NCBI GenBank assembly: GCA_903929765.1
Contig: CAIYVX010000059.1
Coordinates: 1-64,000 of the forward strand
Reading direction: 5' to 3'
Source: an uncultured Planctomycetia bacterium
GTDB lineage: Bacteria > Planctomycetota > Phycisphaerae > FEN-1346 > JAACEH01
DNA: 64,000 nt
Made by a program: the position numbers and the translations under genes. Shown here in pieces: positions 834 through 62,950 of this stretch. Each line of letters opens with the position of its first letter. The stretch's first letter is position 1. The notes beneath the pieces are model-generated. The model did no database searches and was not told where the DNA came from. It saw nothing but the letters and a program-made list of their open reading frames with translations.

Positions 834-868
834 AGTGGTTAGTGTTCAGTGGTCAGTGGACAGTGAAA
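834..868 (+). repeat. Seven-base word tract (AGTGGTC vocabulary)
   Basis: Five consecutive heptamers AGTGGTT, AGTGTTC, AGTGGTC, AGTGGAC and AGTGAAA in strict register. A related tract on the opposite strand lies at 57655-57682. Confidence 0.85.
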
Positions 869-885
869 GAAGCAAAAAACAGCAA

Positions 886-933
886 CCCCTCACCCGGCCC
901 TGAAGGGTCACCCTCTCCCGAGGGAGAGGGGTG
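886..933 (+). repeat. CCCTCACCCGGCC double-hairpin element, copy 2
   Basis: Same layout as the element at 93-141. The second stem is CCCTCTCCC-G-AGGGAGAGGG and the first is shortened. A GAAGAAGC tail and a REP copy follow. Confidence 0.8.
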
Positions 934-966
934 AAGAAGCAGAAGAAGCAAAAGAAGAAACAGCGT

Positions 967-985
967 CCCCCAGCAGAGCTGGGGG
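967..985 (+). repeat. REP-like palindrome, copy 2 (AGA centre)
   Basis: CCCCCAGCAGAGCTGGGGG, with AGAAACAGCGT leader. Its polypurine tail, built from units close to AGAAGCAAAAGA, runs from 986 to the ribosome site of the gene starting at 1057. Confidence 0.88.
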
Positions 986-1056
986 CTTCAAAAAAAGAAG
1001 CAAAAGAAGAAGCAAAAGAAGAGGCATAAGAAGAAGCAAAAGAAACAGCAACGGAG

Positions 1057-2436
1057 ATGTTCTGGATGACCGACGTGCTGTGGTCAAGCGTCTGGCGGTT
1101 GGCGGTCATGGCGGCGCTGCTGGCGATTTCGGCAATGGTGGCGGCGGCGGAGACGTCGCTGTTCAGCCTGCCGCGCGAGCGTCTGCGCCGCTTTCGCCAG
1201 AGTACGGTGCTGGGCGAGCGGCTGGCTCCGCGCCTGCTGGACCATCCCCGTTCGCTGCTGGCCACGCTGCTGTTTACGAACATGACGGTGAACGTGACGT
1301 TCTTCGCCCTGGCGGCGGGGCTGGCCGGAGATTTGGTGCTGGCTCATCATAATTACGCGGCGGTCGCGGTGGGCGTGGCGGCGCTGCTGGCCGTGGTGGT
1401 GCTGGGCGAGATCGCTCCGAAGAATTTTGCGGCGGCGGCCCCGGTTCCCACGGCCCGGACCACGGCGCCCCTGGTCTATTTTCTGACCTGGCTGCTGACG
1501 CCGCTGCGGCTGGTGCTTGATCGCCTGGTGGTCGAGCCGCTGGTGCGGCTGATTACCGGGCGGCGCGGCCGGCACAGTCGCGGCCCGTTCCTGACGACGG
1601 CCGAACTCCAGACGCTGATTGAAATGGCCTCGCGCGAGAGCGTCGTGGCCCGCGACGAAGGCGAAATGATCAGCGAAGTGCTGCACCTGCACTCGACGCG
1701 GGTCCGCGAGGTGATGGTTCCGCGCGTCGACATGGTGGCCTGCGACCTGGCCACGCCGACGGCCGAGGTTCTGGCCATTTTCCGCCGGACGAAGATGAAA
1801 AAGATCATCGTCTATCGCGGCTCGCCCGACGACATTGTCGGCGTGGTGGCGGCGCGAGCCGCTTTTCTCCAGCCCCAGAAGCCGCTGGGCGAGCTGATCG
1901 AGCCGGTTCGCTATGTGCCGGAACAGACCACGGTCGAGTTGCTGCTGCGCATGTTCCGGGAGAAGAAAATTCAACTGGCCATTGTTGTCGATGAGTATGG
2001 CGGCACGTCGGGCCTGGTGACGCTGGCGGATTGCATCGAGGAAATTGTCGGCGAGATTCCCAGCGAGTACGAAGCGCCGCAGACGACGATGGAAAAGTTG
2101 AGCGACACGCAATTCGTCCTCGACGGCAACCTGAGCATGAGGGCCTGGAGCGAGTACCTGGAAACCGACCTCAATACCGAGATGGGCGTGACCACGCTGA
2201 ACGGGTTCGTCATGGGCCTGCTGGGCCGGTTGCCGCACGTCGGCGAGACGTGCCGCTACGGGAACCTGCGGTTCACGATTCAGGAAGTGGGTTGCCATCC
2301 GCACGGCGGGCCGTGTACGCGGGCCAGCAAAATTCTGGTGGAGATTCTCCACCATGACAGCGCCGCCGGGCAACGCAAGGCGGGTCGCCTGGGCGGCGGA
2401 AAACCGCGCGAGTCCGAGGGAGGTGCGCGGCCATGA
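1057..2436 (+). CDS. CNNM/CorC-HlyC family membrane protein with CBS pair
   Basis: 459 residues. The N-terminal DUF21 (CNNM) membrane region occupies about residues 1-160, with the AAETSLFSL motif typical of the first helix. A CBS-domain pair follows (about 215-340, with VVDEYGGTSGLVT), then a CorC/HlyC-associated domain to about residue 440. Family members are linked to magnesium or cobalt movement and are often called hemolysins; transport by this protein is inferred. CGGAG lies just before the ATG, at the end of a REP polypurine tail. The stop overlaps the start of a paralogue by four bases (ATGA), so the two are probably translationally coupled. Confidence 0.88.
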   Translation: MFWMTDVLWSSVWRLAVMAALLAISAMVAAAETSLFSLPRERLRRFRQSTVLGERLAPRLLDHPRSLLATLLFTNMTVNVTFFALAAGLAGDLVLAHHNYAAVAVGVAALLAVVVLGEIAPKNFAAAAPVPTARTTAPLVYFLTWLLTPLRLVLDRLVVEPLVRLITGRRGRHSRGPFLTTAELQTLIEMASRESVVARDEGEMISEVLHLHSTRVREVMVPRVDMVACDLATPTAEVLAIFRRTKMKKIIVYRGSPDDIVGVVAARAAFLQPQKPLGELIEPVRYVPEQTTVELLLRMFREKKIQLAIVVDEYGGTSGLVTLADCIEEIVGEIPSEYEAPQTTMEKLSDTQFVLDGNLSMRAWSEYLETDLNTEMGVTTLNGFVMGLLGRLPHVGETCRYGNLRFTIQEVGCHPHGGPCTRASKILVEILHHDSAAGQRKAGRLGGGKPRESEGGARP

Positions 2437-3476
2437 GCCTCTTCTGGATCAACCTCCTCGCTGCGGCCGGACCCTGGGTGCTGCTGGTGCTGCTGGTCGG
2501 CACGGCGGCGTTTTTCAGCGGGGTCGAGACGGGGGCCTACCGCCTGAATCGCGTGCGCCTCCGCCTGGCCGAGCAGGAAGGGCGGCCCGGCGCCCGGCTG
2601 CTGGGAAAAATGCTCGCCGACCTGCCGGGCGTCATCTGCGTCACGCTCCTGGGCGTCAACGTAGCGACTTATGTAGCCACCATCGTCTCCGAGCGGCTCT
2701 GGCGGCAGGTTTATCCGACGGCGCACGACGAGATGGTCGTGGAACTGCTGACCTCGGTCACGCTGGCTCCGGCCCTGTTCATTTTCGCCGACCTGGTGCC
2801 CAAGGACATTTTCAACAATTGGGCGGACCGGCTGATGTACCCGGCGGCGCGGCCGCTCTGGGTGGCCGACGTGTTTTTCCGCGGCGTGGGCCTGGTCAGT
2901 TTGCTCAAGGGCATCGGGCGGGTCTGGGTGCGGCTGGCCCGCTGGGCGGGTGTGGACGTGCCACCGGAGGAGACGGCGCCGTTTCCGCCGCGCGCCCGGC
3001 TTCAGGCGATTCTCCGCGACAGCGCCGCCGAGGGCGTGATGACGCCTTACCAGAGCGAACTGGCCGAGAAGATCATGAACCTCCAGCACGTCGGGATCCA
3101 GAGCGCCATGGTTCCGGCGGCGCAGGCCGAGACGATTTCCATGGCTGCCGGCCGCGAGGATTTTAACGCCCTGATTCGCCGTTGCCCGTACAGCCGGTTG
3201 CCGGTGGTCGATCCGTCCGAGGGCGACGTGCTCGGCGTGCTGCGCGTCCACGACGTGCTGCGCGAACTGGGACCGGAGGACGAGTTCGACCTGACGCTCT
3301 TCGTCCGGCTGGCCCTGGATTTGCCGGACACGATGAACGTGGCCCAGGCCATGTTCGCCATGCAAAGCGCACGGCTGCCGATGGGTATTGTTAGAAACGC
3401 CAAAGGCGAATTCGTCGGCCTGGTGACGCTGAAAGATCTGGTCGAGGAGATTGTCGGCGAACTGGCGGCGTGGTGA
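2433..3476 (+). CDS. CNNM-type membrane protein, short paralogue without CorC domain
   Basis: 347 residues, starting inside the stop of its larger paralogue. DUF21-type membrane helices fill about residues 1-150 (FFSGVETGAYRLNR). A CBS pair ends at LVEEIVGEL, very near the C terminus, so the CorC/HlyC-associated domain of the upstream gene is absent. The Gly and acidic signature around VVDEYGG of the paralogue is replaced by IVRNAKGEFVGLVT. A heteromeric ion transporter made from both proteins is plausible but inferred. Confidence 0.85.
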   Translation: MSLFWINLLAAAGPWVLLVLLVGTAAFFSGVETGAYRLNRVRLRLAEQEGRPGARLLGKMLADLPGVICVTLLGVNVATYVATIVSERLWRQVYPTAHDEMVVELLTSVTLAPALFIFADLVPKDIFNNWADRLMYPAARPLWVADVFFRGVGLVSLLKGIGRVWVRLARWAGVDVPPEETAPFPPRARLQAILRDSAAEGVMTPYQSELAEKIMNLQHVGIQSAMVPAAQAETISMAAGREDFNALIRRCPYSRLPVVDPSEGDVLGVLRVHDVLRELGPEDEFDLTLFVRLALDLPDTMNVAQAMFAMQSARLPMGIVRNAKGEFVGLVTLKDLVEEIVGELAAW

Positions 3477-3515
3477 AAACGCGCGAACAAACCTGCATAA
3501 CAGAAAGGAGCGGCT

Positions 3516-4637
3516 ATGGTCCAGTTCCAGTGTCAGCAGTGCCGTCGTGAGATTGAGGTGGGCGAGGGCCAGGCCGGGCCGGGGACGGCGTGTCCGCAGT
3601 GCGGCGCTGCCGTGGTCGCGCCGGCGGCGACGTTCACGCCGGTGGACCCTCCCACGGTGCCGGAACCACCCAAGACCAGCGGCTTGGCGATTGCCTCTTT
3701 CGTCTGCGGCCTGGTGGAATGCGTGGGCGGAATCCCGTCTATCCTGGCCCTGATCTTCGGCATCATGGCCATCCGCCGGATCAACCGCAGCGGCGGACGC
3801 CTCAAGGGTATGTGGATGGCCATTACCGGCGTCGTCCTCGGCGGACTGTTCATCATGGCGATTCCTTTGCAGATCGCCATTTTGTTGCCGGCCTTGTCTG
3901 GGGCCATGGACGCGGCCAACCGCATGGCGGACGCGGCCCAACTTAAAAACATCGGCAGCGCGATGAACCTTTACGCGACGAACAATAACGGGCATTACCC
4001 ATCGGTCTATTCCAAGCCGCAGGCGGAGGGCGAACAGTGGGGTCCGGGCTTTGATCCCAAGACCGGCGCCATCGCCGACGCGGCGGCGCCGACCGGGCCG
4101 GGGGCGGTCCACGGGCTGTACACCTGCAACCTGTCGAGCCTCTATCTCCTGGTTCGCGATGGGGATGTCCCGTCCCCGAGTATATTCCACTCGCCGGCGG
4201 ACAAAAATGGTGAGAAGTTGACCGAGCCGAAGGCCAAGGAACTCTGGTCATTCCAGAACATTCACCAATGCAGCTATAGTTACCAGAACCAGTTGGGCCT
4301 GAACTCCAGCCAGAATACTCTCGACCCGGCGATGATCGTGTTGGCCGATGCCAGCCCGCTGCGCCTCGGCACGGAATTGCCCACCGACGCCGTGCTGCCC
4401 TGGGAGCACAACAGTCCGCTTTTCAAGTTCACGGGGCAGAACTGCCTTTACGCCGACGGCCATGTCGCCTGGCAGACGACGCCGGACTGCGGCTATGGCG
4501 GGAACAACATCTGGTTGCGGAGTACATATAATGAATCGATGCCGGATATGCCCGCGATGTGGAACGATGGTTCGCTCAGCACGACTCCGCCCACGGCGAC
4601 CATCGGGCATAAATACGATTCGTTCCTGGCACCGTGA
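3516..4637 (+). CDS. Zinc-ribbon / DUF4190 protein with H-X9-DG-like C terminus
   Basis: 373 residues. An N-terminal zinc ribbon carries two CxxC pairs (CQQC and CPQC) within the first 30 residues. A DUF4190-like pair of hydrophobic segments follows at about 48-130, joined by RRINRSGGRLKG. After it comes a pilin-like stretch, AAQLKNIGSAMNLYATNN, of the kind found in planctomycete prepilin-like proteins. Near the C terminus NCLYADGHVAW matches the DG part of the H-X9-DG motif of those proteins. A cleavable type IV prepilin leader is not seen. Role unknown; probably envelope-associated. AGAAAGGAG precedes the ATG. Confidence 0.75.
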   Translation: MVQFQCQQCRREIEVGEGQAGPGTACPQCGAAVVAPAATFTPVDPPTVPEPPKTSGLAIASFVCGLVECVGGIPSILALIFGIMAIRRINRSGGRLKGMWMAITGVVLGGLFIMAIPLQIAILLPALSGAMDAANRMADAAQLKNIGSAMNLYATNNNGHYPSVYSKPQAEGEQWGPGFDPKTGAIADAAAPTGPGAVHGLYTCNLSSLYLLVRDGDVPSPSIFHSPADKNGEKLTEPKAKELWSFQNIHQCSYSYQNQLGLNSSQNTLDPAMIVLADASPLRLGTELPTDAVLPWEHNSPLFKFTGQNCLYADGHVAWQTTPDCGYGGNNIWLRSTYNESMPDMPAMWNDGSLSTTPPTATIGHKYDSFLAP

Positions 4638-4653
4638 CGGGAGAGGATGTTGA

Positions 4654-5286
4654 ATGAAAACTCTGACGCTGATATTCTTCGCCGAGTTTGCCCTCCTGGC
4701 CCTCGCTGCGCCGCTGGCGGGAGGGCGGCGCACCGTCAAAGGGAAACTGGCCCAGGCGCTGGTCGGACCGGCGGCGCTTGGGCTGGTGCTGGTCGTGCTG
4801 ATCCGCCTGGGCGTCTGGGCGATTGATGGGGCGACGGTGACGGCGATCCTTGAAGTTCAGGCCCTGGCCGCGGGCTTTGCCCTGGCCGTGAGCGGGGCGG
4901 CGGCGCTGGCGGCGCGGCGCTGGCCGGCTGGCGGGTCGCTCGTGGTGACGGTCCTGGCCTTGGCCGTTCTCGCTTCGCCGTTCTGGGGCGATGTGCTGCT
5001 GAACCTGCCGCTGGGGCGAGAGGTTGTCGCCGGGCCGGTCCTGGAGACCCTGGTGCTGCCCAATCCGCTCTTCACAGTTTGCGACATAACGCAATATGAC
5101 TGGATGCATTCCGCCGTGCTCTACGGCCGCCTGAGCCGCCTCGGCGAGGACTTCATGCCGCCCTCCGGCGGCTGGCTTTCCCTGGCGGGCGGTTACGGCG
5201 GCCTCGGACTGCTGCTGGCACTGGCCGAATGGTTGTTCGGCCGCAGACGGAAGTTGACTGGCCACGGCGCGGAGGGTTTGTTATAG
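4654..5286 (+). CDS. Hypothetical membrane protein
   Basis: 210 residues with about five hydrophobic segments (near 1-20, 35-55, 62-85, 90-112 and 180-200) and a basic C-terminal tail after WLFGRRRK. It begins 16 bases after the DUF4190 gene and runs the same way, so co-transcription is likely. I do not recognise the family. Confidence 0.7.
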   Translation: MKTLTLIFFAEFALLALAAPLAGGRRTVKGKLAQALVGPAALGLVLVVLIRLGVWAIDGATVTAILEVQALAAGFALAVSGAAALAARRWPAGGSLVVTVLALAVLASPFWGDVLLNLPLGREVVAGPVLETLVLPNPLFTVCDITQYDWMHSAVLYGRLSRLGEDFMPPSGGWLSLAGGYGGLGLLLALAEWLFGRRRKLTGHGAEGLL

Positions 5287-5319
5287 TTACGATGGAAGGG
5301 CCTGTTTTACGGAGTATTC

Positions 5320-5925
5320 ATGTCGGGCAATAGCCGCTACATGTTGGTGCAATATGTGACCGTGGCCCGGATTCCGCTGGCCATTTCCGTGGCTGTGTTA
5401 CTCCAGTTCGCGGCGGCGAAGGAACCGCTGGCCTTCGTCGTCATCGGCCTGCTGGTGGTGCAGGAGTTGACCGACATGTTCGACGGCTGGCTGGCCCGGC
5501 GGCTCGGAGCTTCGAGCCGCTTCGGGTCGCTGTTTGATCCCTATTGCGATTCAATCGCGCGGCTCATTACGTTTTTCGGCCTGGCCGCGGCGGGCATGTG
5601 CGACTCGTGGCTCTTCCTGCTGCTGGCCGTGCGCGACGTTTCGGTGGCCTATATTCGGATCATGTGCATTCTCAAGGGCCTCCAGGTCGCCGCCCGGGTT
5701 TCCGGCAAACTGAAGGCCCTGGCCCAGGGCATCGGGGCGATTGTCCTGGTGGTCCTGTTTTCCTTCGGCGGGCCGGTGGGGGTGAAAAAGCCCTGGCTCG
5801 CCGAGGGTGTGGAACACGCCCCGCTGGTCATCGAAATTCTGATTGCCGTGGTCACCTTCTGGAGCCTGCTGGACTATTTCAAGGCGGCGCGGCACAAGCC
5901 GGTCGGCGAACCGCTCACGAAGTAG
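5320..5925 (+). CDS. CDP-alcohol phosphatidyltransferase family protein
   Basis: 201 residues with the full family signature D-x2-DG-x2-AR-x8-G-x3-D-x3-D, seen as DMFDGWLARR followed by FGSLFDPYCD (about residues 50-75). This motif binds the CDP-linked substrate and the metal. The rest is hydrophobic helices, as expected for a membrane phospholipid-head-group enzyme such as phosphatidylglycerophosphate synthase or phosphatidylserine synthase; the alcohol acceptor cannot be told from sequence. The TAG stop is part of a GTAGGG hairpin element. A terminator-like hairpin follows about 30 bases later. Confidence 0.85.
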   Translation: MSGNSRYMLVQYVTVARIPLAISVAVLLQFAAAKEPLAFVVIGLLVVQELTDMFDGWLARRLGASSRFGSLFDPYCDSIARLITFFGLAAAGMCDSWLFLLLAVRDVSVAYIRIMCILKGLQVAARVSGKLKALAQGIGAIVLVVLFSFGGPVGVKKPWLAEGVEHAPLVIEILIAVVTFWSLLDYFKAARHKPVGEPLTK

Positions 5926-5948: not shown

Positions 5949-5953
5949 CCAGA

Positions 5954-14374: not shown

Positions 14375-14842
14375 TTATTGATTCCTCACGTATTCAACCG
14401 CCGCACAAACCGCCTTCTCTGTGTAAAGTGCCCTTTTGCTCCCATCCTCCGTCCACCATCGCGGCGCCGGCCTTTCGTCCTTCATCTTGTCGAGAGCTTT
14501 CGTGCCGCACTGCTTGAGTACGCCCATCGCCTTTCCCGGAGAAACCTCCCGAGCCGTCAACACGATATGAACATGGTTGGTCCGCACCGCCAGGGCGTGA
14601 ACCATCCAACCGTATTCGCCGCACGCGCCGCCAATGGCCGTTTCCGCCGCGGCTCGCATGGCTTCATCCAGCACTACGGCCGGTCCTTTCAGCAACTCCC
14701 GCGAATGGGCCTCCAAAAGTGGCCTTGCCGCATCAACCGCTTCGCCGCTACGGTGCTGCCGATCAACCCACCCGCGCTCGTCGCCGGGAAGCCAGGAACC
14801 GTAAGTGGTCCAGGTCAGGAAGTATGCCAGGGGATCGCTCAC
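14375..14842 (-). CDS. REP-associated tyrosine transposase (Y1/IS200-like)
   Basis: 155 residues from GTG 14842, which has ACGGAG seven bases upstream. A longer reading frame runs up through the adjacent REP palindrome (encoding PQQCWGLQKKK) and is not believed. The start segment LAYFLTWTTYGSWLPGD and the HUH motif NHVHIVL (His90, His92) are typical of Y1 transposases of the RAYT group. Candidate catalytic tyrosines are Y151 in EYVRNQ and Y140. RAYTs cut and join single-stranded REP palindromes; here two REP copies flank the gene as direct repeats. It sits between clpB and dnaK. No insertion-sequence ends other than the REPs are seen. Confidence 0.85.
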   Translation of the reverse strand: MSDPLAYFLTWTTYGSWLPGDERGWVDRQHRSGEAVDAARPLLEAHSRELLKGPAVVLDEAMRAAAETAIGGACGEYGWMVHALAVRTNHVHIVLTAREVSPGKAMGVLKQCGTKALDKMKDERPAPRWWTEDGSKRALYTEKAVCAAVEYVRNQ

Positions 14843-14878
14843 GGCGAGGCTCCGTAGTTGTTGTTTCTTCTTTTGAAG

Positions 14879-14897
14879 CCCCCAGCACTGCTGGGGG
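14879..14897 (-). repeat. REP-like palindrome, copy 4, upstream of the transposase
   Basis: On the minus strand CCCCCAGCAGTGCTGGGGG followed by CTTCAAAAGAAGAAAC. Its tail points to the transposase GTG, 37 bases away. Confidence 0.9.
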
Positions 14898-14919
14898 ATG
14901 CTGTTGTTGTGACCGGTTG

Positions 14920-15360
14920 TCAAAGGCTACAACTCGGGGGAACTTCTTTCGCCGCGGCAGTTGGTACCATCGCCTGCAATCCCTGCTCGATAACGCGGTT
15001 AAAGAGTACGACGCGATCCTCAAAGCTTTTCCCAACAAATATGGTTGCAAGTCGCTCAATCTGCGACTCGGAGAGGACGGGGTTGTGGCAGATGACTTCG
15101 TGGCACTCGTAGCAACAAGTGACAGTGCCCCTCTTCTTCTTGACGCCCATCGTGTTCCAGGCGGCGTCACTTAAGTTATGGAATTGCTCACGCGACCTTG
15201 CTTTGCCTGTGGCGTGGCCGTAGTGCATGTTCGACTTTGCATCGTGATCGTGAGTTTTTGCGCCCACGGTAAGCTTTTGATTCTTCGCGGTCTTGTTGGT
15301 CGCTGCGTAACGAATGGGTTGTCCGCAAAGACAACACGTCGAGGACAGTTGTTTGGCCAT
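14920..15360 (-). CDS. Small Cys/His-rich protein, possibly HNH-like
   Basis: 146 residues. CCLCGQ near the N terminus, a central HDHDAKSNMHYGH cluster and CCYECHEVICHNP after residue 80 give enough Cys and His for one or two zinc sites. The CxxCHxxxxHNP segment resembles the last part of HNH nuclease folds, but a full HNH motif is not certain. GGGAGAC precedes the ATG. Base composition is lower in GC than clpB and dnaK on either side. It lies between REP copies, so it may be cargo of the cassette. Function unknown. Confidence 0.6.
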   Translation of the reverse strand: MAKQLSSTCCLCGQPIRYAATNKTAKNQKLTVGAKTHDHDAKSNMHYGHATGKARSREQFHNLSDAAWNTMGVKKKRGTVTCCYECHEVICHNPVLSESQIERLATIFVGKSFEDRVVLFNRVIEQGLQAMVPTAAAKEVPPSCSL

Positions 15361-32000: not shown

Positions 32001-32231
32001 CGGCCGATTATGATGACGACCATGGCGGCGCTGATGGCCGGGTTGCCGATTGCCATCGGCTTCGGGTCGGGGGCGGAGTCGCGGCGGCCGCTGGGCTTGG
32101 CCGTGGTCGGCGGGCTGATCTTCTCACAGTTCATCACGCTGTTCATCACGCCGGTCATCTTCCTCTATCTGGAGCGGGTGAGCCGGTGGGTCGGTCGTCG
32201 CGGCCAGGGACAGGAAAAAGTAGTTTCTTAG
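29055..32231 (+). CDS. RND-family multidrug efflux pump (AcrB/MdtB type)
   Basis: 1058 residues, full length for a hydrophobe/amphiphile efflux-1 transporter. It opens with LFIKRPVMTTLLMVGVVFFG; the fourth-helix proton relay is LSVGFVADDAIVMLENI with both Asp residues, although the usual Val before Asp-Asp is Ala. Large periplasmic loops follow the first and seventh helices, and the C-terminal half holds GIVKKNAIMMIDFAL and RFRPIMMTTMAALMAGLP. It exports hydrophobic compounds using the proton gradient with the lipoprotein encoded before it. Substrates unknown. Confidence 0.96.
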   Translation: MNLSELFIKRPVMTTLLMVGVVFFGVAGFMALPVSDLPNVDFPVLVVMGGLPGATPDMMARSVATPLEQQFSTIPALEMMTSVNSQGATQITLMFAMDRNIDAAAQDVNAAIARASKFLPPQLPSQPTYQKVNPADTPILFLALTSPTMPLYQLDEYGENMMAQQISMVNGVAQVLVFGAQKFAVRVQVDPNKLNSYGIGLDEVAGAIAANNVNLPTGTLYGNYQSFSVLASGQLYHAADYEPMIVAYRNGSPVRVNQVGRAIDSVENDKTAAWFNRERSVVLAILRQPGTNTVEVARAVKDLMPKFRADLPASVTLNTIYDRSESIRNSYNDVQFTLVLTLVLVILVIFLFLRNFWATFIPAIALPISVIATFAAMYFMKYSLDNLSLMALTLSVGFVADDAIVMLENIVRHIERGEKPLDAALRGSREISFTILSMTLSLAAIFIPVIFMPGLVGRLLREFSMTIAFAILISGGVSLTLTPMMCGRLLRHQETHGRLFQWSERVFQGMLAAYEWALTRVLRHQLITAFVAVLTCVATIFLFMNSRVDFFPADDTNQAFGYTECVQGISFDDMVRHQKLVADIVAADPNVDAFISSAGGRGGIGAGNTGVVFIRLKPRKDLMARIDGFFEDASRKVRGLPPVVRSLRTLSVEEVIQGLRTKVLAQVPGIEIRLQNPPMFRTSGQLTQGLYQYTLLGPDTAELYRRSGELEAKLKTLPDLTDVTSDLRIQNPQMEITIDRDKASALGLTAAQIETALYSAFSFRQVSTIYAPSNEYQVILEALPENQRNPSDLSAIYVHSSKGPLVPLSTVVRLDRDVGPLSVNHTGQLPSVTISFNLKPGVALGTAVDEIEKLTRGTMPASITSSWVGAAQVFQKSMSLKAMALLLILAIGVIYIVLGCLYESFWHPITILSGLPSAAVGAILTLLIFGYPLSLYAFVGIIMLIGIVKKNAIMMIDFALAAQRNEGLAPREAIYQGCVIRFRPIMMTTMAALMAGLPIAIGFGSGAESRRPLGLAVVGGLIFSQFITLFITPVIFLYLERVSRWVGRRGQGQEKVVS

Positions 32232-32393
32232 AGCATTTAACGCTTGCCTGTGCTCTGGCGGCCTTCGGCGAGGACGAGTGTGGCTAGGAGGCCGAAGCAG
32301 CCGTATGCAGTTGCATACGGCGATGCAGGACGACAACGCCACGCGAAGCCGCAGCCAGGCCGGCGGGGCACAGGCAAGCGTTAACTGCTCTAA
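32228..32393. repeat. MITE-like element with 26-base inverted ends and inner hairpin
   Basis: The left end TTAGAGCATTTAACGCTTGC is the complement of the right end, with one mismatch and a few terminal differences; the shared core is AACGCTTGCCTGTGC. An inner hairpin CCGTATGCA-GT-TGCATACGG lies near the middle. The left end overlaps the stop codon of the RND pump gene. No open frame fits inside. Confidence 0.7.
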
Positions 32394-34971: not shown

Positions 34972-35535
34972 TGAAAAGGCCCGACGGGCCGGAAGTATTT
35001 AGCCGGGTGGCGTAAGCCCCCGGTTGGCCTCCTCGCGAGAAATAATCTTTTCTTCTTCTTTCTTCTTCTCAAGCCCCGACGGGGCGGCAGACACTTTCGC
35101 CCCATTCAGGGCTTGGTTATAATGCCGTCTCACCGTGGCAGGCCGACGGGCCACGAAGATCGCATCGGCGGCACACGATTATGGCCGGGCTTGCCAGACC
35201 GGGCCACCCTTTTCAAAGATTTTCCAAAAAATCTTTTCGCCGCAACTCTAAGCCCGGCACGGACTTGCGCCGCCACCTAATTCAAATGTAATAGAATATA
35301 TTTGACACGGGGGGGGGGTAATGTACACTATACGAACTCGGGGGAGTTCCTGCTGGAAGGCGGGTGACTCCCCCGCTTGTTTGCGCATCGGTTTCGGCAT
35401 TATTGTAGCTAGGAAATCTTTCAGGAAGGAGGTGAGGCTACGGAAAACTGGCTGTTTCGGGGGAGGAACGATTGATGCAAAATATTGTGCAACGTGTCGT
35501 AGATGTCAAACGTTCCTTTTTTGATGGAGGGTAAA
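34972..35535. other. 564-base spacer with GC hairpins and a leader
   Basis: No believable gene. It holds GGCCCGACGGGCC (about 34980-34992), a GCCCCGACGGGGC hairpin (about 35072-35084), a polypyrimidine TTCTTC run, and an AGATTTTCCAAAAAATCTT inverted repeat. The right 230 bases hold a promoter and a long leader for the PEP-CTERM gene. The 67-codon frame at 35321 is not supported. Confidence 0.6.
35302..35329 (+). promoter_or_regulatory. Likely sigma70 promoter for the PEP-CTERM gene
   Basis: Consensus -35 TTGACA (35302-35307), a 16-base spacer that includes a run of ten G, then TACACT (35324-35329). Transcription from about 35336 would give a leader of about 200 bases. It opens with a GGGGGAGT/ACTCCCCC stem (35340-35347 with 35367-35374) and holds two further purine-rich GGAGG-like sites. 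Confidence 0.5.
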
Positions 35536-38800: not shown

Positions 38801-39109
38801 GAGCGAAGCTCCTTTTATGTAGGTCGGGTCAACAGACCCGACATTCTGCCGAATCGTGCCCGCCATTATCTCGAATTTTGCCGGCTGCGCCGAGAGACTT
38901 TTTCCCGCGAAAACAAAAAACGGCGAATATCCAATAACCAACACTCAATATCCAATCATGAAGGGAAAAACGACCGGCGCGGAATCCGTACTTGGGTGTT
39001 GGATATTGGTTATTGAGTGTTGGATATTCGCTGTTTCTCTCTGTTCCCGGAACGCCAAAGCCACACTCCCTCTTGACATTCCGCTCGCCATGCCGCAAAT
39101 AGTGAGCCT
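38801..39109. other. Divergent spacer with hairpin and heptamer inverted repeat
   Basis: No gene. A GGTCGGGTC-AACA-GACCCGAC hairpin (38819-38843, GTAGG-headed) and the long heptamer inverted repeat fill most of the space between the TPR gene and the dihydrouridine synthase. TTGACA at 39073-39078 may be a -35 element for the latter, but its -10 is weak. Confidence 0.7.
38925..39032 (+). repeat. Heptamer inverted repeat, copy 1
   Basis: Left arm in seven-base register: GAATATC, CAATAAC, CAACACT, CAATATC, CAATCAT. A core with GGAATCCGTACTT follows. The right arm, read on the other strand, is GAATATC, CAACACT, CAATAAC, CAATATC, CAACACC. It ends 78 bases before the ATG at 39110. Confidence 0.9.
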
Positions 39110-44963: not shown

Positions 44964-45018
44964 AGTTCCATACCGTACCTGCCGCTGCTTAACCCGTCAA
45001 GCGCCGTTACGGACAAAG

Positions 45019-45046
45019 TCCTCAGACCTCAGTCCCCAGTCTTCAG
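45019..45046 (-). repeat. Seven-base word tract (CTGAAGT vocabulary), copy 1
   Basis: TCCTCAG, ACCTCAG, TCCCCAG, TCTTCAG in register, then GCGCAGCAAAAACAGC. This flank is the complement of the one at 62881-62893, so the two tracts are inverted copies. Confidence 0.85.
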
Positions 45047-46378: not shown

Positions 46379-46410
46379 CGGGCGGGAATAATCGGGAGGT
46401 TAAAAGGAAA

Positions 46411-46523
46411 CGGAGAATATCCAACAACCAACACTCAATATCCAATCATGAAGTGAAAAACTACAGAAGCGGAATCCGTACTTGGTGATTGGGTGTTGGA
46501 TATTCGATATTGGACATTAGCTG
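46411..46523 (+). repeat. Heptamer inverted repeat, copy 2
   Basis: Arms of GAATATC, CAACAAC, CAACACT, CAATATC, CAATCAT around the core GGAATCCGTACTT. The right arm is partly shortened and ends GGACATTAGCTG. It ends 58 bases before the serA ATG. Confidence 0.88.
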
Positions 46524-50810: not shown

Positions 50811-51159
50811 TGACGTTGACTCCGATTGTTTGGGGTTGAGAGATTATCGTCCTCTCGGATGCCAGTGCAAGAGAAAATGGGCCGCCGGCAGTTTCGGGAA
50901 TTCCCCGGCGAAAAAAAACGGCGAATATCCAATATCCAACACTCAACACCCAATCATCAAGTGAAAAGCTCCCGCGGCGGAATCCGTACTTCATGATTGG
51001 ATATTGAGTGTTGGGTGTTGGATATTGGCTTTTTCCTCTTCTCCGTTCACCGATCTTGACGCTCCCGCTGCCACTTGACATCCCATCCATCCGCCATTAT
51101 ATAGGTGTCTTGCGCCGCTGCCATTGCTGTCCGCAGGGGCCATGAATCAGGAGCCGGCT
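50811..51159. other. Divergent spacer with heptamer inverted repeat
   Basis: No gene. A heptamer inverted repeat takes up the centre; the rest has no clear promoter. CATATTTTGG lies just upstream of the hydrolase start. Confidence 0.65.
50923..51032 (+). repeat. Heptamer inverted repeat, copy 3
   Basis: Left arm GAATATC, CAATATC, CAACACT, CAACACC, CAATCAT; right arm on the other strand CAATATC, CAACACC, CAACACT, CAATATC, CAATCAT. The modules are the same but in a different order. Core GGAATCCGTACTT. It ends 127 bases before the ATG at 51160. Confidence 0.9.
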
Positions 51160-52173: not shown

Positions 52174-52974
52174 ATGTCCAAGACTCTGGCCCTGATGAAT
52201 CGCGAGCTGCGGGCCTATTTCTATAGCCCCGTGGCCTACGTCGCCCTGGTGGCCCTCTACGCCGTCCTGGCCGTCTTTCTGCTGGTGCCGGGCCTCCTGT
52301 CGCCGCGCGGCTACTTCGAGGCTGGCCAGCCCGCCGAGATGCGAGCCGTCTTCGACACCATGGCCTACATCCTCGTCTTCATCATGCCCATCCTGACCAT
52401 GCGGCTCTTGAGCGAGGAGATGAACAAGGGCACCATCGAAACGCTGATGACCGCCCCCGTCACTGACACCCAGGTTGTTCTCGGAAAATATCTCGGGGCC
52501 ATGGGCTTCTATCTCCTGCTGCTCGCCCCTTCGCTCCTTTACCTCGGCCTGCTCGTCGCCTACGGCAACCCCGACGCCGGGATGATTCTGGCCGGGTACC
52601 TGGGCCTCGTGCTGATCGGCATGGTTTACACCGCCGTGGGCCTCTTGACGAGCACTTGCACCCGCTACGACATCGTCAGCGCCATTGTCGCCCTGTTCGT
52701 CCTTGGGACGATCACGCTGCTGTGCACCGTGCTGGCCTGGGGGGCCACGGCCCTGCGGCACCTCGCCCCCACGGCCGACTGGGCCCGCTGGCTCGTTGAC
52801 CGGCTCTCCGACTGGGGCCACCGCTTTTTCGAGTACATCAACGTGGCCAAACGGTACCAGGATTTCAGCCAGGGCAAAATCGCTTTCGACGACGTGACTT
52901 ATTTCCTCGTCGTCACCGCCCTGGTGCTTTTCATCACGGTCAAGGTACTCGAGAGCCGGAAGTGGCGGGCGTAA
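52174..52974 (+). CDS. ABC-2-type permease, GldF-like
   Basis: 266 residues with about six transmembrane helices. It opens MSKTLALMNRELRAYFYSP, typical of ABC-2 permeases, and LLSEEMNKGTIETLMTAPVTDTQVVLGKYLG is the conserved cytoplasmic elbow after the second helix. AAAAGG precedes the ATG. It pairs with the ATPase gene 51 bases upstream. Confidence 0.92.
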   Translation: MSKTLALMNRELRAYFYSPVAYVALVALYAVLAVFLLVPGLLSPRGYFEAGQPAEMRAVFDTMAYILVFIMPILTMRLLSEEMNKGTIETLMTAPVTDTQVVLGKYLGAMGFYLLLLAPSLLYLGLLVAYGNPDAGMILAGYLGLVLIGMVYTAVGLLTSTCTRYDIVSAIVALFVLGTITLLCTVLAWGATALRHLAPTADWARWLVDRLSDWGHRFFEYINVAKRYQDFSQGKIAFDDVTYFLVVTALVLFITVKVLESRKWRA

Positions 52975-52981
52975 AACAGTT

Positions 52982-53016
52982 AAAAATGCAAAATTAAAAA
53001 TGAAAAATTAAAAAAG
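52982..53016 (+). repeat. Seven-base word tract (AAAAATG vocabulary)
   Basis: AAAAATG, CAAAATT, AAAAATG, AAAAATT, AAAAAAG in strict register, between the permease stop and the GldG-like gene. Confidence 0.85.
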
Positions 53017-57654: not shown

Positions 57655-57682
57655 ACTGACCACTGCCCACTAACCACTATTT
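57655..57682 (-). repeat. Seven-base word tract (AGTGGTC vocabulary), copy 2
   Basis: ACTGACC, ACTGCCC, ACTAACC, ACTATTT in register; the complement of the words at 834-868. Confidence 0.82.
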
Positions 57683-57782: not shown

Positions 57783-58793
57783 ATGGTTGACATGGTCAAA
57801 ACGACGGACGAGTTGCGTACCAAGGGCAAAGCGGCGGAGGCCCTGGCAGCGCTCGAGAAGGCCCCCAAGTCCGAGCAGAACACCGCGCCCTGGCACTACG
57901 CCCGCGGCCGGACGTTGGAAGATCTCGGTCGCTACGACGATGCCCTGGAGGCCTACGAGGCCGCCTTGGCGAAAAATGACAAGTTCCGCGCCGCCCGGCT
58001 GCGTCTGGCCTTCCTGGCCGACCTGCGCGGCGACGAAGCCAAGGCCCTCAGGTGCTACGAAAAGTGCGTCGAGCAATGGCCGCGCGACGAGTTGGCCCTG
58101 CTGAACCTCGGCACGCTCTACGAGGAATACGGGTTCCAGGATCCGACCTATTACGAAAAAGCGGTCCAGTGCTATCGCCAGGTGCTGGCCTTCAATCCCA
58201 ACCACACCCGGGCCCGGCTCGGCCTGCGCGACGCCCAGGCCACCAAGAACATGTTCTACGACGAGGAGCAGGAACGCCGCCGCGACAAACGCAACCAGGT
58301 CATGGAAATTCCGATCACCGATTTCGAACTTTCCGTTCGCAGCCGCAACTGTCTGCGGAAGATGAACGTCTTCACCCTGGGCGATCTGGTCATGCACACC
58401 GAGGCCGACCTGCTGGCCTACAAGAATTTCGGCGAAACCAGTCTGACCGAAATCAAGGAAATGCTGACCCAGCACGGGCTTTATCTGGGCATAGGCCTGG
58501 AGCACACGGGTGCGGCGCCGGCGGTGGTTCGCCAGGCCGTGCCCACGCCGGCGGAGGTCAGCGCCGCTCAGGAAGAGGCCGAGACGCGGGCCGCTGTCGC
58601 CGAAATGCTCCTCGACGGCATCGAGTTCTCCGTCCGCTGCCGCAAGTGTTTCACCAAGCTGGGCCTCAAGACCCTCGGCGACCTGGCCAACTTCTCCGAA
58701 ACGGAGTTGATGGACCTCAAGAACTTCGGGCAGACTTCGCTCACCGAGATCAAGCAGAAGTTGCACCGCTACGGCCTGAACATGAAGGAATAG
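57783..58793 (+). CDS. TPR protein with two RNA-polymerase alpha-CTD-like domains
   Basis: 336 residues, with CAGGAGG 11 bases before ATG 57783. Residues 10-150 hold about four tetratricopeptide repeats (WHYARGRTLEDLGRYDDALEAYEAAL, then LALLNLGTLYEEYG). Two alpha-C-terminal-like domains follow: ELSVRSRNCLRKMNVFTLGDLV ... LLAYKNFGETSLTEIKEML (about 178-240) and EFSVRCRKCFTKLGLKTLGDLA ... LMDLKNFGQTSLTEIKQKL (about 275-332). Each matches the helix pair by which the alpha subunit of RNA polymerase touches DNA and activators. No polymerase domain is present. A DNA-binding or polymerase-linked adaptor is plausible but unproven. Confidence 0.88.
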   Translation: MVDMVKTTDELRTKGKAAEALAALEKAPKSEQNTAPWHYARGRTLEDLGRYDDALEAYEAALAKNDKFRAARLRLAFLADLRGDEAKALRCYEKCVEQWPRDELALLNLGTLYEEYGFQDPTYYEKAVQCYRQVLAFNPNHTRARLGLRDAQATKNMFYDEEQERRRDKRNQVMEIPITDFELSVRSRNCLRKMNVFTLGDLVMHTEADLLAYKNFGETSLTEIKEMLTQHGLYLGIGLEHTGAAPAVVRQAVPTPAEVSAAQEEAETRAAVAEMLLDGIEFSVRCRKCFTKLGLKTLGDLANFSETELMDLKNFGQTSLTEIKQKLHRYGLNMKE

Positions 58794-58810
58794 GGCGGGG
58801 GTTGTTGTTT

Positions 58811-58858
58811 CACCCCTCTCCCTTGGGAGAGGGTGGCCCGCCGGGCCGGGTGAGGGGT
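58811..58858 (-). repeat. CCCTCACCCGGCC double-hairpin element, copy 3
   Basis: On the minus strand CCCCTCACCCGGCCCGGCGG then GCCACCCTCTCCCAAGG. Inverted relative to copies at 93 and 886. It lies 17 bases after the alpha-CTD gene. Confidence 0.8.
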
Positions 58859-58911
58859 TGTGGCGAGGAATCCTTCGCCGGGTGGAAGCCCTTCCGAAAG
58901 TTGTGATACCG

Positions 58912-59469
58912 ATGTCAATCTTGCTCCACATTTGTTGTGCGCCGTGCCTGCTCGGCCCGCTCGACGAGCTGCGCCGCGCTGGCTTTGTCGGCTATTTTTA
59001 CAACCCCAACACTCACCCCCTGATCGAGTTCCGCCGGCGGCTCAAGGCGGTCCAGGTTCTCGCCGAACAGGAGCGGTTCGACCTGGTTTGCGACGAGCAA
59101 TACGGCCTGACGAAGTTTCTTGAGACCGTCGATTGGCGCGGGCCGAATCGTTGCCGCGATTGCTACCGGCTCCGCCTCCGCGCCGCCGCAAATCTGGCCC
59201 GCGAGCGCGGCTGCGAGGCCTTCACTACCACGCTCCTGGTCAGCATCTACCAGAACCACGAGGCCTTGCGCCAGGTCGGCCAGGAAGTTGCCGCCGAAAC
59301 CGGCGTGCCTTTTGTCTATCACGACTGGCGGCCGCTGGCCGATAACGGACGCCAGGCGGCCAAGAGCCGCAGCCTCTATCGCCAGCAGTATTGCGGCTGC
59401 GTCTTCTCCGAGTTCGACCGCTACAAGAACGCGTCTTTGCACCTCCACCGTCCGGGGGAAACGCCGTAG
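58912..59469 (+). CDS. queH: Epoxyqueuosine reductase QueH
   Basis: 185 residues from ATG 58912. HICCAPC at the N terminus, RCRDCYRLRL in the middle and YRQQYCGCVFS near the C terminus supply the Cys pairs that bind the iron-sulfur cluster and metal in QueH (DUF208). VYHDW and NPNTHPLIEFRRRL are also family features. It performs the last step of queuosine synthesis in tRNA. tgt, which inserts the precursor base, is encoded 1.8 kb downstream. Confidence 0.93.
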   Translation: MSILLHICCAPCLLGPLDELRRAGFVGYFYNPNTHPLIEFRRRLKAVQVLAEQERFDLVCDEQYGLTKFLETVDWRGPNRCRDCYRLRLRAAANLARERGCEAFTTTLLVSIYQNHEALRQVGQEVAAETGVPFVYHDWRPLADNGRQAAKSRSLYRQQYCGCVFSEFDRYKNASLHLHRPGETP

Positions 59470-59549
59470 TTTCCGGGGGTGGGCCGTTTCGGCGCAGGCG
59501 GGCCAGGACGAATAATGTTTGCTCTGGAAAGGTCGGGAAGACACGGAAA

Positions 59550-59662
59550 CAGCGAATATCAAATATCCAACACTCAATATCCAATCATCAAGTCAGACTC
59601 CCGATCCGGAATCTGCACTTCATGATTGGATATTGGTTATTCGATATTGGATATTCGCCGTT
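59550..59662 (+). repeat. Heptamer inverted repeat, copy 4
   Basis: Left arm GAATATC, AAATATC, CAACACT, CAATATC, CAATCAT; core with GGAATCTGCACTT; right arm on the other strand GAATATC, CAATATC, GAATAAC, CAATATC, CAATCAT. It ends 55 bases before the ATG at 59717. Confidence 0.9.
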
Positions 59663-59716
59663 GTTTTGCTTTTGCCGGGAAAGCCCAGCCGGCCCGGTTG
59701 CGACTTGGATGAGAAT

Positions 59717-61012
59717 ATGCCAGACGAAAAAAACTTTGAATCCAACGCCTCGCGCCGCTTCCTGATCGGCGTCCTTGCCCTCCTCGCCGCCCTGATTCTC
59801 GTCTCCGGCTGCACCCCGCCCGAAACCATTCCTCCGCCGCTCGTGCCGCTGGCGACGCTGTCGCCACCGAAGACCATTTTTTCCGAACCGGCCGCCAGGA
59901 TCGTTCCGACCATCCGCATCAAGCTCGGCGATGACGCCCCTGAAGCGGTCGTCAAGATTCACGGCGCCTTCCGCCTGGCCGACCTTTCGACCGGCCGCAC
60001 CCTCCTGGCCGGGGCCCGCATGGACAATGGCCATTTCACCTGTGACCAGCACGGCCTGCTGCTCCTCAACGCCCAGAGCCTGCCGGCCCCGCGCGTCGAA
60101 ATCCTCCCCGCCGACGACGGCACGGTCGAGGTTTTCGGCGCTCTCTACCACGGCCGCCTGCGGGTCATGGCCGTCCGCGGCCAGGTTCGCCTCGTCAACG
60201 CCGTCGATCTGGAACAATACCTGCCCAGCGTGGTCGGCCAGGAAATGTACCCCTCCTGGCACCTCGAAGCCCTCAAGGCCCAGGCCGTGGCCGCCCGCAG
60301 CTACGCCCTTTACGAAATGCGTCGCGGCGGCGCCGATCCCGAATTCGATCTCTTTGCCACGCAAAAAAGCCAGGCCTATCCCGGCATGAACTCCGAGACT
60401 GACAACTCCCGCCAGGCCGTGAAAGAAACGCGCGGCGTTATCCTGGCCTTCGACGACGGCGGCGTCGAGCGCGTCCTGCCGGCCTTCTATCACAGCACCT
60501 GCGGCGGGCACACCTTCAACGCCGCCGACGTCTTTCCCGGGCGGCCCGGCGTTGACGCCGTGCGCGGCGTGGCGTGCGGCTATTGCACCAGCGCCAAATG
60601 CTATCGCTGGCAGGCTGTGGTTCCCGCCGAAACTTTTCGCCGCGAGTTCCAGGCCGACGTTCCCGGCGGCGCCGCCATGTGCCCCATCAACCGTGCCGCC
60701 GTCCGGCCCGACGACCTGACCGCCGACGGCCGCGTCCGCACCGTCAGCCTTTGGACCACCCCCGACAAATCTCAGCGCTGGCCCGTCCCGGAAGAAACTT
60801 TCAAGCAACTCTTTCCCCCCGACCAGAAGGTTCGCAGCGACCGCTTTTCCGTTTCCTTTGTCGCCGGACATCTGCTGGTCTCCGGCGCCGGTTACGGCCA
60901 CGGCGTCGGGATGTGCCAGTTCGGAGCCGAAACCCTGGCCGCCGGCGGACGAAAAGCCGAGGCCATTCTGAGTTATTATTATCCAGCCGCTCATCTGGCC
61001 AGAGCGTATTAG
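59717..61012 (+). CDS. SpoIID/LytB-domain lipoprotein
   Basis: 431 residues from ATG 59717. The signal ends LILVSGC, a lipobox-type Cys at about residue 32, then a Pro-rich linker. The SpoIID/LytB domain (about 180-430) has LEQYLPSVVGQEMYPSWHLEALKAQAVAARSYAL, FYHSTCGGHTFNAADVF and GAGYGHGVGMCQFGAETLA. In Bacillus SpoIID is a lytic transglycosylase acting on denuded glycan strands; non-sporulating bacteria use relatives for cell-wall work. Both neighbours are queuosine genes, so a functional link is not suggested. Confidence 0.9.
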   Translation: MPDEKNFESNASRRFLIGVLALLAALILVSGCTPPETIPPPLVPLATLSPPKTIFSEPAARIVPTIRIKLGDDAPEAVVKIHGAFRLADLSTGRTLLAGARMDNGHFTCDQHGLLLLNAQSLPAPRVEILPADDGTVEVFGALYHGRLRVMAVRGQVRLVNAVDLEQYLPSVVGQEMYPSWHLEALKAQAVAARSYALYEMRRGGADPEFDLFATQKSQAYPGMNSETDNSRQAVKETRGVILAFDDGGVERVLPAFYHSTCGGHTFNAADVFPGRPGVDAVRGVACGYCTSAKCYRWQAVVPAETFRREFQADVPGGAAMCPINRAAVRPDDLTADGRVRTVSLWTTPDKSQRWPVPEETFKQLFPPDQKVRSDRFSVSFVAGHLLVSGAGYGHGVGMCQFGAETLAAGGRKAEAILSYYYPAAHLARAY

Positions 61013-61037
61013 GCCGCTTCTTCGAGGTGAAACGGAA

Positions 61038-61155
61038 ACAGCGAATATCCAATATCCAACACTCAATATCCAATCATGAAGGAAAAAAACTCCCGTTTCG
61101 GAATCTGACTTCATGATTGGATATTGGATATTGAGTGTTGGATATTCGCTGTTTT
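61038..61155 (+). repeat. Heptamer inverted repeat, copy 5
   Basis: Left arm GAATATC, CAATATC, CAACACT, CAATATC, CAATCAT; core with GGAATCTGACTT; right arm on the other strand GAATATC, CAACACT, CAATATC, CAATATC, CAATCAT. It ends 72 bases before the tgt ATG. Confidence 0.9.
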
Positions 61156-61226
61156 AATTCAGCGAAAACCCTTAAATGCCGGATGAACCGTTATCTTTTC
61201 GCACCGTTTCTGAGAAAAGGGGGCGC

Positions 61227-62351
61227 ATGGGCCAATTTGAATTTTCCATCCTCTCGCGCGACTCCACGACCGCCGCCCGCGCCGGCGCCTTCTCCACCCC
61301 GCACGGCTCGTTCCGCACGCCGGCCTTCATGCCGGTGGGCACGCGGGCCACGGTCAAGGGCCTGCTCCCGCGCGACCTCCGCGAGGCCGGCACCGAAATT
61401 CTCCTGGCCAACACCTATCACCTCGCCCTCCGCCCCGGGGCCGAAGTCGTCCGCGACCTGGGCGGCCTCCACGCCGTGATGGCCTGGGACGGGCCGATCC
61501 TCACCGATTCCGGCGGCTTCCAGGTCTTCAGCCTGGCCACGCTTTGTCGCATCAGCGACGACGGCGTCGAGTTCCGCTCGCACGTTGACGGCGCGCCGCT
61601 GGTGATGACGCCGGAAAGCTGCATGGAAATTCAGGCCAACCTCGGGGCCGACATTATCATGGCCCTCGACCAGTGCCCGCCCTATCCGGCGGCGCGGCCG
61701 CAGGTGGCCGAGGCCACGGAGCGGACCCTGCGCTGGGCCGCCCGCTGCGCCCAGGCCCAGAAAAATCCCGACCGCCAGGCCCTTTTCCCCATCGTCCAGG
61801 GCGGCGAGTTCGACGACCTCCGGGCCGAATGCGCCCGCCGGCTCGTGGCCGAAGTCCCGTCGCCCGGCTACGCCATCGGCGGCGTCAGCGTCGGCGAGCC
61901 GCACGAACTGATGATGCGGGCCGTCGAGGCGGCCATCGTCCACCTCCCCGCCGACCGCCCGCGCTACCTCATGGGCGTCGGCCAGCCGCGCGACGTTCTG
62001 GGGGCGGTTCGCCGCGGCGTGGATCTCTTCGATTGCGTCCTGCCGACCCGCAACGGTCGCAACGCCTCGGCCTTCACCTTCTCCGGCACCGTCCGCCTCC
62101 GCAACCTCCGCCACGAGCGCGACCGCGGCCCGATTGAGACCGGGTGCGATTGTCCGGCCTGCCGCCACTTCTCTCGCGGGGCGATTCGCCACTATTTTCA
62201 GGTGGGCGAAATGTTAGGTCCGATCCTGGTCAGCCTGCACAATGTCCGCTTTTTCGCCCGGTTTTTTGAAGCCATGCGCCAGGCCATTGCCGCCGGAGGG
62301 TTTGACAAGTTTGAGCAGGACTTCCTGAAAACCGTTGATTCCGTCGCTTGA
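61227..62351 (+). CDS. tgt: Queuine/preQ1 tRNA-guanine transglycosylase
   Basis: 374 residues from ATG 61227, with AAAAGGGGG upstream; an earlier ATG at 61176 would add 17 residues not seen in the family. HGSFRTPAFMPVGT opens the barrel, LTDSGGFQVFSL holds the first catalytic Asp, and FDCVLPTRNGRNA the nucleophile Asp. CDCPACRHFSR with a later His forms the zinc site. It exchanges guanine 34 for preQ1 in GUN-anticodon tRNAs. Order tgt-yajC-secD matches many other bacteria. Confidence 0.96.
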   Translation: MGQFEFSILSRDSTTAARAGAFSTPHGSFRTPAFMPVGTRATVKGLLPRDLREAGTEILLANTYHLALRPGAEVVRDLGGLHAVMAWDGPILTDSGGFQVFSLATLCRISDDGVEFRSHVDGAPLVMTPESCMEIQANLGADIIMALDQCPPYPAARPQVAEATERTLRWAARCAQAQKNPDRQALFPIVQGGEFDDLRAECARRLVAEVPSPGYAIGGVSVGEPHELMMRAVEAAIVHLPADRPRYLMGVGQPRDVLGAVRRGVDLFDCVLPTRNGRNASAFTFSGTVRLRNLRHERDRGPIETGCDCPACRHFSRGAIRHYFQVGEMLGPILVSLHNVRFFARFFEAMRQAIAAGGFDKFEQDFLKTVDSVA

Positions 62352-62398
62352 AATGGCTATAGTACGCGGTCCGCACAGGGTGCGGAAAAGGAGAGCCT

Positions 62399-62794
62399 AT
62401 GCATTGGTTAATCACGCTGGCCCAGGCCAGTGACGCGGCGGCAACGTCCACCAGTTCTTCGGCCACGACCACGTCGGCCCCCAGCGGCCCGGGGAGTTCG
62501 ATGTTGCTCTTTGCCGGCCTGGCCCTGGTGGCCATGTACTTCCTGATGATCCGGCCGCAGCGGAAACAGGAAAAGACCCGTCAGCAGATGCTCGCCAAGA
62601 TCGAGAAGAACGATCAGGTGGTGACCATCGGCGGGATCAAGGGCCTGGTTTACTCCGTCGGCGACGACGACGTGGTCCTGAAGATCGACGAGCGCAACGA
62701 TGTTCGCATCCGTGTCACAAAGACTGCCATCGCCCACATTCTGACCGAGGCCGAGGTCAAGAGCGGCGCCGAAGGCGAAAAGAAGCCTGAATAG
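62399..62794 (+). CDS. yajC: Preprotein translocase accessory subunit YajC
   Basis: 131 residues. An N-terminal Ser/Thr/Ala-rich stretch, one transmembrane helix (about 37-55, MLLFAGLALVAMYFLMIRPQRK, containing the family MIRPQRK), and a cytoplasmic domain with GGIKGLVYSVGDDDVVLKI. AAAAGGAG precedes the ATG. YajC binds SecDF near the Sec translocon; secD follows at 62974. Confidence 0.93.
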   Translation: MHWLITLAQASDAAATSTSSSATTTSAPSGPGSSMLLFAGLALVAMYFLMIRPQRKQEKTRQQMLAKIEKNDQVVTIGGIKGLVYSVGDDDVVLKIDERNDVRIRVTKTAIAHILTEAEVKSGAEGEKKPE

Positions 62795-62812
62795 GACGGA
62801 CGTTGCTGTTAT

Positions 62813-62838
62813 GTAGGGTGGCTGCTTGCAGCCACGCG
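62813..62838 (+). repeat. GTAGGG hairpin element (GTGGCTGC stem)
   Basis: GTAGGGTGGCTGCTTGCAGC, stem GTGGCTGC/GCAGCCAC, 18 bases after the yajC stop. Confidence 0.75.
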
Positions 62839-62893
62839 GTTATAAAAAGCCGTTTTCCGCTTGGTGTTGCTGTTTCTTTTGTTTTTGCTGCGC

Positions 62894-62950
62894 CTGAAGT
62901 CTGAGGACTGAAGTCTGAAGACTGCAGTTCTGAAGTCTGAAGTCTGTCTC
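62894..62950 (+). repeat. Seven-base word tract (CTGAAGT vocabulary), copy 2
   Basis: CTGAAGT, CTGAGGA, CTGAAGT, CTGAAGA, then an eight-base CTGCAGTT, then CTGAAGT, CTGAAGT, CTGTCTC. It is the longest such tract in the window and ends 23 bases before the secD ATG. Confidence 0.88.

Follow-up and report, generated by a model that had tools for sequence, protein, structure and literature searches.

How can a single bacterial genome carry several unrelated sets of short repeated words that all keep the same step of seven bases? The question is raised by a 64,000-nucleotide stretch of DNA (the window) from an uncultured Planctomycetia bacterium, contig C59 of a 3.83-Mb genome (G000, completeness 96%), in which tandem seven-base words (heptads) form solo arrays and the arms of five hairpins, lying between protein-coding genes. 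Bacterial heptanucleotide repeats have been described again and again, without an agreed origin or function, while the 23S rRNA intervening-sequence protein (IVP, or S23p; PF05635, a four-helix bundle) is encoded by widespread genes that have no known role. We consider it probable that the two belong together, in that the hairpins and solo arrays of the window are gene-less relatives of the selfish elements made up of an intervening sequence (IVS) and its S23p gene, with the heptads as the element arms. Such a tie would turn the repeats into arms of an element, provide the protein with a candidate nucleic-acid target, and explain several unrelated word sets of one step in the same genome. It would also give the old unexplained seven-base repeats of bacteria a testable origin.

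The evidence comes in the first place from the flanks of IVP genes. PF05635 was matched in 20 of 21 genomes of interest and in none of 14 control genomes, and in one genome (G518) an arm extends into the start codon of a gene for a four-helix-bundle protein. In a first set of 30 IVP loci, arrays within 300 bp of the gene numbered 35 for period 7, against 4, 9, 5 and 1 for periods 6, 8, 9 and 10, respectively. Since the genomes of this set had mostly been picked for heptads, the weight is carried by a second, independent set of 20 loci from genomes not so picked. Here 26 period-7 arrays occupy 8 kb of near flank compared to 15 in 48 kb of far flank, a roughly 10-fold higher density beside the IVP gene (Poisson p ~5e-18); arrays stand on both sides at 10 of the 20 loci, clearly inverted at seven, and their modal length is 31 nt. 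Across 55 pooled IVP matches the best period was 7 in 33 (both sides in 21) and 8 in 10 (both sides in 5), whereas random placements gave 3 of 500 for each of these periods. The flanking words are mostly of 7 nt, sometimes 8 and rarely 6 or 9, and lie on one or both sides of the gene, often as inverted arms. IVP genes without heptads often carry 8-base arrays, and a reading of the period-8 matches as echoes of period 7 was ruled out, these being separate arrays. IVP genes within one genome can bear differing words (for example in G138, G002, G057 and G221). The view, put forward in the original prediction from the window's sequence, that one cause lies beneath the unrelated word sets is supported. 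Other steps were seen individually: 8-base words at ten IVP loci (L308-L310, L312, L326, L327, L288, L302, L290 and L292), 9-base words on both sides at two related loci (L279 and L286), and 6-base words on both sides at one (L294).

Every vocabulary of the window flanks an IVP gene in some genome. AAAAATG is found on both sides of the sole PF05635 gene of G000 itself (contig C4, locus L296; E 2.6e-16), where the start codon falls inside an array and inverted arrays follow the stop. AATATCC arms occur at the IVP gene of G039 and GGATATT-type arms at those of G518 and G098, the three proteins forming one lineage (56-63% identical) that shares 28-30% identity with the G000 IVP. CTGAAG flanks an IVP gene in G198 (L291) and its variant CTGAGGA one in G138 (L303). 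The ACTGACC vocabulary does so as AGTGGTT/ACTAACC in G219 and G183, and in two genomes from a cross-phylum scan; the loci at which the vocabulary of window positions 834-868 flanks an IVP gene are L317, L325, L093 and L158. At L296:1315-1434 (G000:C4), the AAAAATT array 3' of the IVP gene appears twice, the copies being separated by a linker, as if a half-element had been duplicated.

We propose that a complete element would consist of an arm, an S23p/IVP gene of about 120-136 codons and an inverted arm, each arm usually of ~31 nt and made of four to five degenerate words in a fixed step (mostly 7; some 8, 9 or 6). The five window hairpins would then be two arms minus the gene and the five solo arrays likewise gene-less, dispersed between genes; several vocabularies could coexist in a genome because every element has a word set of its own. 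The copies in the window resemble gene-bearing elements in their words, in the size of the arms and in the inverted layout, which suggests descent from such elements. During spread the arms may act as an RNA stem or as a protein-binding site, and an IVP pentamer may read the repeating step. The solved IVP relatives 2gsc (XCC0516, the closest, a Xanthomonas campestris protein) and 2rld have five chains each, in line with a pentameric ring, and an array of four to five 7-base words would suit one word per subunit. A protein with seven-base spacing, one of two mechanisms originally suggested, is possible, with the IVP itself as a candidate. Words are somewhat more alike at the genes of related IVPs (Mantel r 0.148, p 0.004), and such proteins tend to have a common step, as do 35 of 43 nearest neighbours where 27.3 would be expected (p 0.02); the latter would fit a step imposed by the element or by its protein instead of the polymerase. 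In G000, no intermediate between gene-bearing and gene-less copies was found.

Several observations weigh against an origin from IVS/S23p elements. G000 has one IVP gene in its whole genome, against ~140 arrays in a third of it, most of them gene-less. It yielded no IVP gene with GGATATT, CTGAAG or ACTGACC arms, so that for these words the link to IVP comes from other genomes. Neither an insertion site nor a target duplication nor an empty site came to light; the module copies do have inverted ends, which miniature inverted-repeat transposable elements combine with target-site duplication. At IVP genes, arrays are in a few cases paired in direct and not in inverted orientation, and 7 of the 55 IVP matches lack a detected array of any period. 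In other phyla, an IVP gene occurs in only 2 of 120 CAGTGGT loci within the fetched stretches, abutting the array in both. Lastly, PF05635 is so common in the class (189 of 248 genomes) that co-occurrence of IVP and heptads at the genome level is weak evidence.

The excess of the seven-base period itself lies in the spacers. We read 1.18 Mb of G000 (about one-third) in stretches, of which 369 kb were not match-selected, and called genes with our own caller (open reading frame plus hexamer score), for which reason single gene boundaries may be off. Period-7 arrays numbered 135 in intergenic versus 8 in coding DNA, while periods 4, 5, 8, 10, 11 and 13 gave 1-9 intergenic arrays each (period 8: 6 intergenic, 3 coding; period 5: 3 intergenic, 7 coding). 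The 369 kb held 11 intergenic and no coding arrays of period 7, and none of either kind of period 8. A simple hairpin-arm pattern had 92 matches in G000 compared to none for the same pattern read backward. Lag-7 autocorrelation was 0.2905 in spacers, 0.2677 in shuffled sequence and 0.2591 in coding sequence, with lags 3 and 6 likewise raised in spacers. The lag-7 excess, proposed as a check with the original prediction, was thus neither missing genome-wide nor shared by coding sequence. A chance origin of the period-7 tracts is excluded genome-wide, and the seven-base intergenic tracts are confirmed as real. Those first named in the window are present and read in 7-base steps, and the inverted repeats were located; only the claim of a strict register needs amending, as the tract at 62894-62950 slips by one base where CTGCAGT meets TCTGAAG.

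G000 has at least seven word sets (AAAAATT, CTGAAG, CTTAAG, ACTGACC, GGATATT, CGATATT and TTTTACC), so that the several unrelated vocabularies of the original prediction stand, though not their number, given as four. CTGAAG, CTTAAG and ACTGACC arrays follow a T-rich triplet linker on the gene side of the spacer, those of CTGAAG mostly upstream of start codons; AAAAATT arrays adjoin genes at a median of 5 nt and are nearest to a stop codon in 31 of 42 cases. Exact word counts peak at four for AAAAATT (25 chains of four, 7 of two, 6 of three) and, counting the end word CGCYGTT, at five for GGATATT (63 chains). The GGATATT module reads CTTCATGATT + GGATATT + GAGTGTT + GGWTATT + GGATATT + CGCYGTTT, and 61 of 72 modules anchored by CTTCATGATT have exactly four words, which argues that the heptad copies are not products of free slippage. 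Twenty full elements of ~119 bp in the G000 sample comprise two inverted modules around a loop of ~27 nt. Selection of the hairpin for perfect pairing was rejected: where the arms pair, their words match each other less well than do words of random elements (word 2: 4.44 versus 5.44 of 7). This is due to the TGTT word, which usually takes second place in one arm but third place in its partner, so that the arms are not kept for perfect pairing. In three modules all words begin with C in place of G, where 0.016 such modules would be expected, indicating that words inside one array can change together. We claim the four-word preference for G000, and as the modal length of IVP arms, not for all phyla; a sharp peak across phyla was rejected, as it is present in tract lengths but exact CAGTGGT counts only drop after four words.

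These features bear on slippage with a 7-base step dictated by the footprint of DNA polymerase, which would make heptads anywhere outside genes, their nearness to IVP being incidental. In most genomes no long simple repeat is commoner than the heptanucleotide, and the over-representation of heptamers as a class has been ascribed to polymerase slippage, with the footprint as proposed cause (Mrazek 2007, as relayed in PMC4679880 and PMC4692102). Strains of Coxiella and of Cyanothece differ by multiples of 7, and some homogenisation within arrays is visible both in the all-C modules and in adjacent ACTGACC words, which are more alike than shuffled ones (p 0.002). Word number is fixed, however, and a marker word is conserved across dispersed copies; other families of the class, and a different class of the phylum as well, carry the GGATATT module with altered words and the marker word still second. 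Slippage would equally leave unexplained why arrays concentrate and pair in inverted fashion at IVP genes, some of which have 8- and 9-base steps. Simple slippage by a fixed seven bases, the other mechanism originally suggested, is insufficient on these grounds, and we judge slippage unlikely to be the origin of the arrays, although it may still adjust copy number inside them.

A second alternative holds that the hairpins resemble repetitive extragenic palindromes (REPs) and their paired forms (REPINs), moved by Y1 transposases (REP-associated tyrosine transposases, RAYTs), with heptads as incidental arm sequence. G000 has eight Y1_Tnp matches, one in the window (a Y1 transposase-like gene at 14375-14923, minus strand, with a PF01797 match at 14450-14674), GTAG-type palindromes occupy the same spacers, and the coexistence of paired and single modules recalls the dispersed doublets and singlets of REP/REPIN. 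Yet the heptad modules, with their heptad substructure, lack a GTAG head: they end in AAACRGCG/CGCYGTTT, and no GTAG or CGTC tag was found at the palindrome foot. Furthermore, a control at 15 Y1 loci gave three period-7 arrays, whereas IVP genes carry them regularly, and we regard this explanation as improbable.

Similarly improbable, to our minds, is the idea that the arrays are regulatory binding sites selected at gene edges, for a nucleoid protein, a translational regulator or Rho loading. The positions of AAAAATT and CTGAAG arrays relative to stops and starts are in its favour, as is the interpretation of Beggiatoaceae TAACTGA repeats near starts as translational regulation (PMC4679880). 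Against this, position and orientation vary with the vocabulary, the AAAAATT words contain neither GGA nor the YC spacing that marks rut sites, and the one other genome of the same family examined (G001) has neither of the two vocabularies searched. Addition of heptads from an RNA template by a telomerase-like reverse transcriptase, which fixed-length tandem short words might recall by analogy, is highly implausible given many vocabularies per genome, and was rejected as no RVT_1 (PF00078) match exists in G000 at 96% completeness.

Among the closest known systems is the IVS with an S23p reading frame in Coxiella burnetii and Leptospira. In Coxiella the IVS, 428 nt long, lies in 23S rRNA; RNase III cuts its terminal stem of 28 bp, and its S23p gene is preceded before the start by tandem GACAGAT heptamers in two or three copies by strain (PMC4990558). 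Terminal inverted repeats around an S23p/IVP gene, heptamers before the start and copy variation in steps of seven are points of likeness to the elements proposed here. The window copies differ in lying between protein genes and not inside 23S rRNA (an Rfam scan found no rRNA in the window) and in being gene-less (the window has no PF05635 match); loci of the class also differ in often having arrays on both sides and many word sets. The window's hairpins have long-stem terminal inverted repeats and RNA folding z-scores from -3.9 to -11.9, while its solo arrays are without terminal inverted repeats or stem. Cyanobacterial short tandemly repeated (STRR) sequences and the TAACTGA repeats are likewise intergenic 7-nt tandem words at multiple loci, strain-specific and in several word sets; here, in contrast, the words are degenerate, the modules of fixed length and the arms inverted. 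The GGGAATC heptads of Xanthomonas, dispersed between genes, mostly in four units and with ~70 inverted pairs, were ascribed to G-quadruplexes (PMC4692102). They share dispersal, four-unit preference and inverted pairing with the present arrays, whose words have no G tracts (three or more consecutive G in a unit), so that quadruplexes cannot account for a four-unit preference here. It is conceivable, if rather doubtful, that the heptads of bacteria at large, STRRs, TAACTGA and GGGAATC among them, are S23p/IVP arms or relics, the pentamer binding one word per subunit and about five words per ring. Such binding would set both the step and the ~31-35 nt array length, and the step would be 8 or 9 nt in other lineages.

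In open-access literature we found no published link of heptads in general to S23p/IVP genes, and a search with the module sequence returned nothing relevant. An excess of heptads in planctomycetes, from which the original prediction knew of no such description, is not wholly unreported, as a published table gives the phylum the highest median for 7-base repeats (PMC4060949). Of the 248 class genomes, 15 have CTGARG arrays; these are spread over families and include several inverted pairs. The proposed likeness to cyanobacterial STRRs was borne out by an 18-base CAGTGGT array, which occurs in at least 120 stretches (~8 expected by chance) from at least 12 phyla including cyanobacteria, with 149 neighbouring arrays of period 7 versus 12 of period 8. 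Between widely separated inverted arrays in other phyla no recurrent cargo gene was found. Carriage by phages or plasmids was rejected, the GGATATT module having no match in viral contigs, plasmids or phages. A single hairpin at L078:2135-2292 (G138) has CTGAGGA as outer and AGGGTTC as inner word set in both arms.

Heptad arrays and hairpins of the window
Feature	Coordinates	Strand	Words and remarks	RNA z-score
Solo heptad array	834..868	-	AGTGGTC/ACTGACC vocabulary, 5 words; 16 nt downstream of stop codon at 817	
Hairpin, 119 bp	38918..39036	+	Two inverted arms; CAATATC/CAACACT/CAATAAC words	-6.0
Solo heptad array	45017..45046	-	CTGAAG vocabulary	
Hairpin	46408..46518	+	Two inverted heptad arms, least regular of the five	-3.9
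Hairpin, 119 bp	50916..51034	+	Two inverted heptad arms	-8.5
Solo heptad array	52980..53016	+	AAAAATG/AAAAATT vocabulary; directly after stop codon at 52974	
Solo heptad array	57655..57682	+	ACTGACC vocabulary	
Hairpin, 115 bp	59548..59662	+	Two inverted heptad arms	-10.1
Hairpin, 119 bp	61036..61154	+	Two inverted heptad arms	-11.9
Solo heptad array	62894..62946	+	CTGAAGT vocabulary; one-base register slip near 62928; preceded by T-rich linker ending TGCTGCGC	

Other sequences share the spacers with the heptads. Linkers made of triplets (TTG, CTG, TTT, CTT and CCG), exemplified in the window at 62840-62893, occur genome-wide, give an excess at lags 3 and 6 in non-coding DNA, and connect palindromes and heptad arrays with constant polarity. 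Palindrome families, GTAG-type and others (gtagggacagggctctgccctgtcc, cccccagcaatgctggggg and gggtgccacactttgaagcccc), make the spacers mosaics, as at G000:C39:11540-11760 and G000:C13:15783-15950. Elsewhere in the window, an Acido-Lenti-1 RNA (RF01687) at 34977-35023 (minus strand) scores barely over the gathering cut-off, and a separate, non-heptad inverted repeat at 32228-32393 has arms of 37 nt that are 89% complementary, with 92 nt between them.

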